Shown here one piece after another: positions 27,708-48,680 of a DNA stretch of 52,171 nt; the stretch's first letter is position 1, and every line of letters begins with the position of its first letter. The notes beneath the pieces are model-generated. The model made no database searches, was not told where the DNA came from, and saw only the letters and a program-made list of their open reading frames with translations. This stretch comes from Nitrospirota bacterium (lineage in GTDB: Bacteria; Nitrospirota; JACRHJ01), in assembly GCA_021784575.1 (NCBI GenBank), contig JAJYHX010000004.1:132350-184520 (forward strand), read 5' to 3'. The position numbers and the translations under genes were made by a program.

Positions 27708-27768
27708 GAGAGAAGTATAGCAGGGAAAAAGGGCGAGGGCTGGTTTTATATAGCCCTCGCCATAAATA

Positions 27769-27885
27769 CTACGCCTTTACCCAAATTGCCCAAGCCTTGT
27801 GCCCGTACTGCCAAGCGTAAAGCTTACGTCCTTTAACAGTAATCGAAGCCACAAAAATGAGCTTATAGCCCGGTCGATCTGGCAT
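27769..27885 (-). CDS. Small protein, 38 residues, hypothetical
   Basis: Begins MPDRPGYKLIFVASIT and ends in KAWAIWVKA. ATG at 27885 has AAAGGGGG about 6 bases upstream. Basic (several Lys/Arg) with aromatic residues; two beta strands are likely. The pattern x-K-L-I-F-V-x-S-I-x-x-K-G-R-K-L-Y-A looks like small conserved ORFs I have seen in related genomes, but this is memory and not shown by the sequence. Divergent from the small RNA at 27954. Confidence 0.5.
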   Translation of the reverse strand: MPDRPGYKLIFVASITVKGRKLYAWQYGHKAWAIWVKA

Positions 27886-27918
27886 GAGGATCCCCCTTTC
27901 TAAGGACCTCTCTTTTCC

Positions 27919-27947
27919 TTGACATGCCAGAACGACTTGTTTACAAT
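27919..27947 (+). promoter_or_regulatory. Promoter of a small RNA
   Basis: TTGACA (27919-27924), 17-bp spacer, TACAAT (27942-27947), start near 27954. Confidence 0.8.
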
Positions 27948-27953
27948 TCACAT

Positions 27954-28055
27954 AGGACAAGCGACTCTGGCAATGTCAGGGTCCGCCCCTGGAGATCCTC
28001 CAATAGGGGCAAGATGCAGCCCCGCTAACTACCGCGAATAGTTAGCGGGGTTTTT
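27954..28055 (+). ncRNA. Probable small RNA of about 100 nt, unknown family
   Basis: A near-consensus promoter, then about 100 bases with no coding frame, ending in an intrinsic terminator (12-bp stem at 28020-28031/28039-28050 plus TTTTT). An internal stem-loop is clear: GCCCCT pairs with AGGGGC, enclosing GGAG-ATC-CTCC. The 5' GGAC can pair with GTCC. I checked for the SRP GGAAG apical motif and for common riboswitch cores and saw none. The next gene downstream is on the opposite strand, so this is a free-standing transcript and not a leader. Confidence 0.65.
28020..28055 (+). terminator. Intrinsic terminator of the small RNA
   Basis: CCCCGCTAACTA pairs perfectly with TAGTTAGCGGGG around a 7-base loop, followed by TTTTT. 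Confidence 0.92.
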
Positions 28056-28057
28056 CT

Positions 28058-28828
28058 TCAATCCTCTTCGTCTAAATCGAATTTTAATACGTCAATTTGA
28101 TGAAGGAGTTTATTTATATCCTTTTTTGTGAAGCCATCTGGGATAAATATCTGCGCATATTGACCGTTGCTAAATTTCAGTTTAAAATGCTGACCTTCTT
28201 CCTGAACAACTTCCCCCTTATAAATTCTCATTGTGGAAGTCGCATCTCTTTCTGGTAAATCCCCTTGAATATTTATCTTATCAATTTCTTTTACAACCTC
28301 GCCCGCCAACGTTTTAAGTTCTACGACAAGTCTGTTATCTTTATCTAACACCGCCGAATATTTTGCAGACTCAATAAAAATTGTTGCGGCATCATCTTTC
28401 GCATTTTCGGCAACATGGAAGTCAACATACAAGATATTTGCTAAGGTCGATGGAAGAATTACTTTATTATATTTTCCAATTATTTCTTGGTAAAGCGCTG
28501 GTAATTTAAATGCTTTTATCAAAGCGTTTGCTCGATCTATATCTGATGCGGGATAGATTATAGACTTCGCTAAAGTGGTAGCATGCACTCTTTTCTTATT
28601 AAATTCAATCAGGCCGAATTGTCTTGATGATGAAAATTTTTTTTCAAATACAGCGGAACGTTTCTGTACTCCCATTGCCTTTTGCAAAACGCCATAGTCG
28701 GCACTCTCACCGCATTTATTTATCATGTCTTCCACAAAAATAACACAAGCTCCAAGGTTTTCTCTTGGATAACTGCGACCTCGGCCCGGGTTCCTCAAAT
28801 TCAATTCGTCAGATTTATTTATATTCAT
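28058..28828 (-). CDS. Hypothetical AT-rich protein, two-part architecture
   Basis: 256 residues, clearly AT-richer than its neighbours, suggesting transfer. The N-terminal part (about 15-110) has a winged-helix-like pattern: SYPRENLGACVIFVEDMINKC, then FSSSRQFGLIEFNKKRVHAT and later YPASDIDRANALIKAFKLPAL. I recall hypothetical proteins of this type in bacteria and archaea, with no assigned function. The C-terminal part (about 200-256) is a small beta-rich region ending in an acidic tail. GAGGAGG stands 9 bases before the ATG and a good promoter lies at 28852-28880. Its 3' end nearly abuts the small RNA terminator. Confidence 0.75.
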   Translation of the reverse strand: MNINKSDELNLRNPGRGRSYPRENLGACVIFVEDMINKCGESADYGVLQKAMGVQKRSAVFEKKFSSSRQFGLIEFNKKRVHATTLAKSIIYPASDIDRANALIKAFKLPALYQEIIGKYNKVILPSTLANILYVDFHVAENAKDDAATIFIESAKYSAVLDKDNRLVVELKTLAGEVVKEIDKINIQGDLPERDATSTMRIYKGEVVQEEGQHFKLKFSNGQYAQIFIPDGFTKKDINKLLHQIDVLKFDLDEED

Positions 28829-28851
28829 GGTTTTCTCCTCCTCTTGAAGGA

Positions 28852-28880
28852 ATATTACGCGGTATATTCTAAAAAGTCAA
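28852..28880 (-). promoter_or_regulatory. Promoter of the AT-rich gene
   Basis: Minus strand TTGACT (28880-28875), 17-bp spacer, TAATAT (28857-28852). Confidence 0.75.
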
Positions 28881-28980
28881 GTAAAAAGCACATCCTCTCA
28901 TCTCTGTCGCATTTACGGGCTGTTTTTATGGCGGCAGGGGAGGGGTTTCAGGGCAAAATCACGGGGCGGGGAGGCCGGTT

Positions 28981-47502: not shown

Positions 47503-48680
47503 CACCTCCCTGAACCGAACGCGGGGCTGTGGCGCAGCTGGGAGCGCGCTTGACTGGCAGTCAAGAGGTCAGGGGTTCGATCCCCCTCAGCTCCACCAAA
47601 AAAATCAAGGGGTTGGGCATCACGCTCAGCCCCTTCGTTTTTACAGGTGTCCGTATAGGTGTCCCCGCCGTCCAGCCTTCTAATCGCTTCATGCTCAAAA
47701 TCCTCAGGCGTTACCACGTAATATTTCAGCGTCGTTTCTATCTTCTTATGCCCCATCCACTTCTGGAGCATCTTCGGCGGTATCCCCATCAGGACGCAGT
47801 TTGTCCCGAATGTCCGACGAAGGTCATGGAATCTGACATCAGAAAGCCCGGCCCTTTCAATAGCCGCACGGAAAGACTTTTTAATATCCTTAATCCGCCG
47901 ACCATACCTGTCATGGAATACATAAAAACCCTTTTGGCGGTTTAGAAGGTGCGTGAGTTCAGCCTTAGCGGTTTCGTTCAAAGGAACAATCCTCGCATAG
48001 CCCCCTTTGCCGTCTTCAACTTCAAGGACGCCCCTGTCAAGGTATATATGCGACCACTTAATGGATAACAGTTCTTCCTTCCGAAGGCCGGTATGAAGCC
48101 CTACAATTACCAGGGGCTTTAGATAAGTTACTCCCGCGCCGTTACAGGCTTCAATTAATTTTTCGGCCTCCCAATGGCGCAGGAAACGCTGTCTTGCCTT
48201 TTCCCTTTCAAGCTTGAAGCCCTTTACCGGGTTGACCTTTAAGAAGCCCCACTCTATAGCCTTGGTTAATATACCCTTTAAAATTACCGTCTCACGGTTG
48301 ACCATACAGACGCCGACTTCCTGGGAACGCTTTGCATAAAAAGTTTCTATATGATAGCGGTTGATCTCCGTAAGGAGGAAATCACCAAAGAAGCTGATAA
48401 GCTGTTTGACAAGATAAGTATAAGTCTGATACGACCTCTTTTTAGAGGCATGTTTTTGAAGGTATTCGGGGACAAAATCCTTGAACTTTACTTGGGGAAG
48501 GAATTTTTCGGGGAATAATTTTCTTTCGGATATCTCGGTTCTAAGCTTGGCCTCGTATTCCTGAGCCATCCGTTTAGAGGTCAGGCCGGTAGCAAAATAT
48601 TTCTTTTTGCCGTGCTCATCAGCAATTCGCACAGCCCATTCAGTTCTATTGTTTGTTATATTCCATTTTGGTATTAACAT
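47502..48680 (-). CDS. Tyrosine recombinase (phage-type integrase)
   Basis: 392 residues with N-terminal SAM-like core-binding domain (about 60-160) and catalytic domain: R200 in TGLRKEEL, H285 and R288 in HDLRR, H311 in GHKKIETTLKYY, and Tyr320/321. The reading frame ends at 47502 after passing antisense through the whole tRNA-Ala; residues 361-386 are tRNA-encoded (AEGDRTPDL). The natural C-terminus is therefore probably nearer residue 345-360, and this C-terminus is a product of integration. Ribosome site AAGGGG upstream of ATG. Adjacent to the excisionase-like gene. Confidence 0.93.
   Translation of the reverse strand: MLIPKWNITNNRTEWAVRIADEHGKKKYFATGLTSKRMAQEYEAKLRTEISERKLFPEKFLPQVKFKDFVPEYLQKHASKKRSYQTYTYLVKQLISFFGDFLLTEINRYHIETFYAKRSQEVGVCMVNRETVILKGILTKAIEWGFLKVNPVKGFKLEREKARQRFLRHWEAEKLIEACNGAGVTYLKPLVIVGLHTGLRKEELLSIKWSHIYLDRGVLEVEDGKGGYARIVPLNETAKAELTHLLNRQKGFYVFHDRYGRRIKDIKKSFRAAIERAGLSDVRFHDLRRTFGTNCVLMGIPPKMLQKWMGHKKIETTLKYYVVTPEDFEHEAIRRLDGGDTYTDTCKNEGAERDAQPLDFFGGAEGDRTPDLLTASQARSQLRHSPAFGSGR
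47523..47598 (+). tRNA. tRNA-Ala (anticodon GGC)
   Basis: 76 nt with encoded CCA. The acceptor stem GGGGCTG pairs with CAGCTCC (one G-T), the D arm is GCGC-GCGC, the anticodon stem CTTGA/TCAAG encloses loop CTGGCAG (anticodon GGC, reading GCC/GCT), and the T arm is AGGGG-TTCGATC-CCCCT. Its 3' half is the likely integration site of the element downstream. Confidence 0.97.

Follow-up and report, generated by a model that had tools for sequence, protein, structure and literature searches.

A candidate divergent antisense RNA gene in a mobile small-protein module of a Nitrospirota bacterium

The structured unit between polX and nth of this Nitrospirota bacterium is best explained as the gene of a small RNA that belongs to a mobile small-protein module and is divergent, and putatively antisense, to a gene of 38 codons. 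We reached this reading from the whole stretch of 52,171 nucleotides that was analysed (the window) and from homologous loci in other genomes, plasmids and phages. It replaces the proposal of the first-pass annotation that the RNA is free-standing, because the RNA gene repeats beside one small-protein family, opposite the leader of the small gene, and in the window it lies within an acquired island. Judging from the sequence, it is very probable that an evolved RNA gene exists at 27919-28057. We somewhat favour, from the sequence and by analogy with known systems, repression of the 38-aa gene as the role of this RNA.

The unit starts with a sigma-70-type promoter on the plus strand (27919-27947), TTGACA at 27919-27924 and TACAAT at 27942-27947 with a 17-nt spacer, exactly as first annotated. 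It matches 11 of the 12 consensus positions, its score was equalled in none of 300 dinucleotide shuffles of the same 220 nt, and its placement relative to the small gene repeats in homologous loci. With the 5' end put about 6 nt past the -10 element, the predicted RNA is about 104 nt long (27954-28057, plus strand) and is predicted to form three hairpins, in keeping with the earlier description of about 100 nt of structured RNA with an internal hairpin. Its folding energy is -51.1 kcal/mol against a mean of -32.4 (sd 3.4) for dinucleotide shuffles, none of 200 being as good, and the terminator itself contributes part of the resulting z of -5.5. Hairpin 1, GACUCUGGC/GUCAGGGUC (27963-27983, plus), doubles in sequence as the complement of the start-codon region of the 38-aa gene. 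Hairpin 2 is a GCCCC-loop-GGGGC structure (27985-28010, plus), and a similar hairpin is present in the RNAs of two homologous loci (L006 and L064). The unit ends with an intrinsic terminator (28018-28057, plus), whose stem at 28018-28052 has the 12 perfect pairs announced, or 14 counting G-U, and is followed by a T run. The sequence and the layout repeated in homologous loci both give good support to a small RNA equipped with a promoter and terminator of its own. The Rfam check proposed at the outset returned no known family for the RNA: at the gathering threshold, applied to the window and 18 loci, the small RNA matched none, in agreement with the earlier exclusion of SRP RNA, tmRNA and riboswitches and likewise for 6S and other housekeeping RNAs. 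The sole threshold match in the whole window is a tRNA at 47523-47595. At E <= 10, the best match of the RNA locus was CopA antisense RNA (RF00042), with 20.6 bits against a threshold of 60 (E = 0.28).

Head-to-head with the RNA lies an unannotated gene of 38 aa, MPDRPGYKLIFVASITVKGRKLYAWQYGHKAWAIWVKA (27769-27885, minus strand), which starts 34 nt from the -35 element of the RNA promoter. It has a strong Shine-Dalgarno sequence, AAAGGGGG (27892-27899, minus), and a probable terminator, GGCGAGGGCT...AGCCCTCGCC with a minus-strand T run (27726-27761). The earlier description of the RNA as located between convergent or divergent small genes is correct only once this gene at its left is counted; the statement that no gene follows the RNA on the plus strand stands, both flanking neighbours being on the minus strand. 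The 38-codon frame is not an accident, because homologues exist in another Nitrospirota genome, a Geobacter plasmid, a Microcystis phage and numerous viral contigs. An HMM applied to all fetched loci gave about 31 distinct members, which share the core motif xIT-K-NGKRLYA--YG-KAF/W-I-V, and the family is present in 11 of 396 genomes of the phylum Nitrospirota. Viral scans with the subfamily alignments A4 and A5 yielded no further members. The family has no covering model in Pfam, NCBIfam or PADLOC, and in PHROGs three families of unknown function each matched 1 of 24 members (E 0.002-0.008). Literature searches found no description of the protein family or of any RNA linked to it, and on these comparisons the family is undescribed.

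According to an AlphaFold2 prediction, the 38-aa protein is a small antiparallel beta sheet (mean pLDDT 87). A fold search with this model gave no match in the PDB and none to a known RNA-binding protein, and its best viral fold matches are uncharacterised phage proteins (E ~0.03). The net charge is +6 for the window protein and +9 for the member of a viral contig (L036). The hydrophobicity typical of membrane-type toxins was not found in these two, the maximum 17-residue hydropathy being 0.88 and -0.29, respectively. Downstream of the small gene, the Geobacter plasmid (L004, 1355-1707) and the Microcystis phage (L019, 2700-2880) carry another conserved small gene ('NPPxGDxHRxG...FKGVRKEK'), which is followed on the plasmid by a DUF3606 gene. 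These three genes, all tiny and uncharacterised, seem to travel together. In L036, the gene downstream of the small gene (2188-2736) resembles the Panacea/DUF4065 (SocA-like) antitoxin family, by resemblance only.

The acquired island (27729-28962) consists of an accessory gene, the small RNA and the 38-aa gene. It is absent from a genome of the same genus (G003), in which polX and nth are about 64 bp apart as against 1.23 kb in the window, and its GC content is 41%, compared with 55-58% in the flanking genes. The accessory gene (28058-28828, minus strand) is AT-rich (36% GC), ends at the small-RNA terminator and has a candidate promoter from the promoter scan, TTGACT-17-TAATAT, at 28852-28880 (minus). 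Its 256-aa product has no Pfam family above the cut-off and is a distant relative of partner proteins beside the small gene in L010/L060 and L011/L061. The partner gene of L060/L061 is oriented the other way, and a sense promoter lies just past the RNA terminator.

In the Nitrospirota loci, the genes upstream of the small gene are winged-helix-like, often with an IS1-like transposase, and a transposase of this type, assigned by resemblance, comes after the module in L009, L055, L006, L061 and L067; a search of the window for one found none. In the phage and plasmid loci L004, L022, L023, L036, L039, L043 and L049, the small gene is directly preceded by genes for an Xre-like regulator and an ImmA/IrrE peptidase. 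The peptidase was confirmed with Pfam in L036, L043, L022, L049 and L039, was just below the cut-off in L004 and weak in L023; the Xre assignment was tested for the L036 gene and made by resemblance for the remaining ones. Members without the RNA are also without these upstream genes. Several further features were observed around the IS-linked copies. A tRNA-Ser (GCT) gene is located between the partner and the small gene, on the strand of the latter, in two different Nitrospirota genomes (L006 1300-1374 and L067 1724-1797), and it may be cargo of the IS-linked module. In L055 and L061, the IS1-like transposases are accompanied by what appear to be passenger genes, which encode wHTH-type or small 'LGRLGGKKGG' proteins, and L003/L005/L055 has matching ends, GTAGTGGGTCAGTTTGAAT / ATTCAAACTGACCCACTAC.

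The divergent layout recurs far more often than in controls. With a promoter of at least 9/12 consensus positions plus a terminator as the definition, it was found in 11 of 31 distinct family members, which are not 11 independent cases because related pairs (L056/L009) are included, as compared with 3 of the 312 gene starts from these loci that served as controls. In the shared arrangement, a sigma-70-like promoter faces away from the small gene at 27-60 nt from its start codon, and a terminator follows within 220 nt. All 'KAWxIWV'-type members that were examined first have hairpins and a sigma-70-like promoter with the -35 element at 29-38 nt, that of the Geobacter copy being weak, and a terminator is 110-225 nt away in nearly all of them. 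The promoter of L036 is perfect (12/12), and a later search added, beyond the 11, L064 with TTGATA-16-TATAAT plus a terminator. The members with this layout include proteins that are less than 50% identical and whose RNA sequences are unrelated; indeed, RNA sequences differ almost completely between loci of separate lineages. In the close pairs that were compared, the promoter is the best conserved part, and compensatory changes were seen in the terminator of L060/L061 and in the repeat arms of L056/L009. Thus, of the conservation that the first-pass annotation suggested checking, the architecture is kept in homologues, whereas the RNA sequence is not. About half of the family, members that stand alone in phage contigs, are without the RNA.

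An imperfect inverted repeat is placed over the promoter, its left arm spanning the -35 element and the spacer (27917-27940) and its right arm at the 5' end of the small RNA (27957-27981); none of 40 shuffles was as good. Most loci with promoter and terminator likewise have an imperfect inverted repeat between the promoter region and the 5' part of the RNA that scores above shuffles, and repeats better than shuffles (p <= 0.05) are nearly confined to loci with the divergent promoter. The G-U asymmetry of the arms (32 against 36) does not indicate the strand of action. A separate 14-nt inverted repeat (93%) connects the start of the 38-aa gene (27873-27886) with the spacer of the RNA promoter (27923-27936), and its sequence would allow pairing between leader and start codon in the mRNA.

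The 5' half of the window RNA is complementary to the ribosome-binding site and start codon of the 38-aa gene. The segment at 27962-27987 (plus) covers mRNA positions -11 to +10 with single-base interruptions. Against local segments, this pairing has p = 0.006 by alignment and 0.021 by energy; by raw energy the 38-aa start ranks 6th among the 132 translation starts of the window, 5 of the 131 others scoring better. Over 15 loci, the RNAs prefer their own start regions (permutation p = 0.0007). With local-segment controls, the combined pairing p is about 0.015-0.02, a signal that comes from the window, L036, L067 and, less strongly, L064, and pairing at the start region as a universal feature was not upheld. 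The anti-Shine-Dalgarno stretch of the RNA differs between L006 and L064 in step with its target (GGUCACUC to GGCCACUC). Constrained folding revealed no consistent switch of the ribosome site upon RNA binding across loci.

The mechanism that we propose starts from the RNA gene (27919-28057, plus), which is divergent from the 38-aa gene (27885-27769, minus) and lies opposite the leader of the latter. A scan for a minus-strand sigma-70-type promoter of the 38-aa gene inside the window RNA region found none. In the window, sense transcription of the leader would come from the upstream accessory gene, which ends at the RNA terminator, and in L060/L061 it would start from the promoter just past that terminator; either route makes it plausible that a sense transcript crosses the RNA region. 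Given such a transcript, the RNA would pair perfectly with the far leader and imperfectly with the Shine-Dalgarno sequence and start codon, and the pairing would keep synthesis of the small protein low, like the antitoxin RNAs of divergent type I toxin-antitoxin pairs. We infer from the sequence transcription, base-pairing in the cell and repression, as well as any toxicity of the protein.

Other explanations should be weighed against this one. The -35/-10 region lies in the repeat arms, which would fold within the leader on the minus strand, and Xre/ImmA pairs, which commonly act on nearby operators, adjoin several members; both would suit an element that acts on the other strand or as DNA, namely a hairpin in the leader of the small-gene mRNA or an operator for the neighbouring Xre or winged-helix regulator, with the plus-strand RNA as a by-product or as transcriptional interference only. 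We regard this as unlikely, since the divergent promoter and well-placed terminator occur far above the control rate, the promoter hexamers and terminator are the best conserved part between close pairs, and arms of 20-40 bp are wholly different between loci, unlike an operator. The RNA and the protein might instead act as a ribonucleoprotein, the basic three- to four-stranded protein binding the structured RNA, which would act on other targets or titrate the protein. The strong basicity and predicted beta sheet of the protein agree with this idea, as do the co-occurrence of the RNA and protein genes and the mimic of part of the mRNA leader that the RNA carries because of the inverted repeat. 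However, about half of the protein family is without such an RNA, the RNA sequence and hairpins are hardly kept between loci whose proteins are conserved, and the fold search gave no known RNA-binding protein, all of which makes the ribonucleoprotein quite improbable.

As many bacterial small RNAs are intergenic and the unit is complete from promoter to terminator, a trans-acting small RNA of the host, there by chance and unrelated to the small gene, was also considered. It is very improbable, because the island is missing from the close relative G003, a DNA search for the small RNA in 40-41 related genomes found only its own copy, and the layout accompanies the small-protein gene in other genomes, in plasmids and in phages. 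Consensus promoter matches are common in this DNA (11 found in 8 kb against 5.7 expected), which would allow functionless, promoter-like and terminator-like matches by chance. The combination of promoter, repeat, hairpins and terminator, together with the excess over control gene starts (11/31 homologues vs 3/312), leaves hardly any room for that.

Regarding known systems, the gene order of the putative antisense module is like that of zorO-orzO, tisB-istR, shoB-ohsC and dinQ-agrB, divergent type I pairs of E. coli in which a gene of less than 60 codons faces a divergent RNA of about 100 nt with a stretch complementary to the 5' region of the mRNA (PMC3919570; PMC4147584). For zorO-orzO, 15-18 nt at the 5' end of the RNA suffice (PMC3919570), and the complementarity of the window RNA to the start region would fit repression of translation. 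Unlike in these pairs, the 38-aa protein is non-hydrophobic and of another family, the complementary stretch is interrupted and extends to the start codon, and the module moves together with Xre-ImmA or IS-linked genes. Not all type I toxins are hydrophobic, known exceptions being SymE and RalR (PMC4147584). SymE, which is non-hydrophobic like our protein and has beta-rich relatives, is controlled by an antisense RNA covering the ribosome-binding site (PMC1891008; PMC4147584), but it has 113 aa, is related to AbrB/MazE and has no detected sequence relation to the 38-aa protein, and SymR overlaps the coding sequence, unlike the window RNA. The CopA/CopT system of plasmid R1 also has an antisense RNA gene with hairpins and a terminator in the leader of a small reading frame, whereas the window RNA is far below the CopA threshold and no replication gene is downstream of the module. 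In R1, tap precedes the leader. Comparable to tap is a leader peptide that precedes the leader in L060/L061: a conserved sequence of 31 aa, M-K/E-RR-L-PAGHW...KAL-L-SLVR, seen at 1790-1890 of L010 (minus strand) and at the corresponding place in L011. It has a TTGACA-17-CAAAAT/CAGAAT promoter of its own and overlaps the antisense RNA terminator. The pair of Xre and COG2856 (ImmA/IrrE), which immediately precedes the small gene in several family members from phages and plasmids, has been listed as a candidate toxin-antitoxin pair, in passages that make no mention of a third, RNA-linked small-protein gene (PMC2701414); the accessory gene of the window differs and is not Xre-ImmA. By analogy, the module would work like a type I pair, of which it is not a proven member, and toxicity is putative.

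Finally, the loci together may represent, as a tentative and still doubtful proposal, an undescribed and widely mobile module of three parts, in which an antisense RNA gene lies between the gene of a conserved, basic beta-sheet protein of 38-50 residues and either an Xre-ImmA/IrrE pair or a winged-helix gene accompanied by an IS1-like transposase. This could amount to a new class of small effectors silenced by an RNA, perhaps type I toxins of a non-membrane kind, and each lineage would have rebuilt the RNA but retained its position and promoter. Literature searches combining Xre-ImmA, antisense RNA and small gene, DUF3606 and small RNA, or IS1 passenger genes and antisense RNA found no description of it. 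Annotation overlooks most small proteins of less than 50 codons, as well as the RNAs that regulate them. In the present case, a candidate orphan RNA has led to a protein family without an entry in Pfam, NCBIfam or PADLOC, which occurs in several mobile contexts and has a testable partner RNA. If the pairing is true, Xre-ImmA modules in phages and plasmids, as well as IS-borne cargo, would gain an RNA-controlled component.
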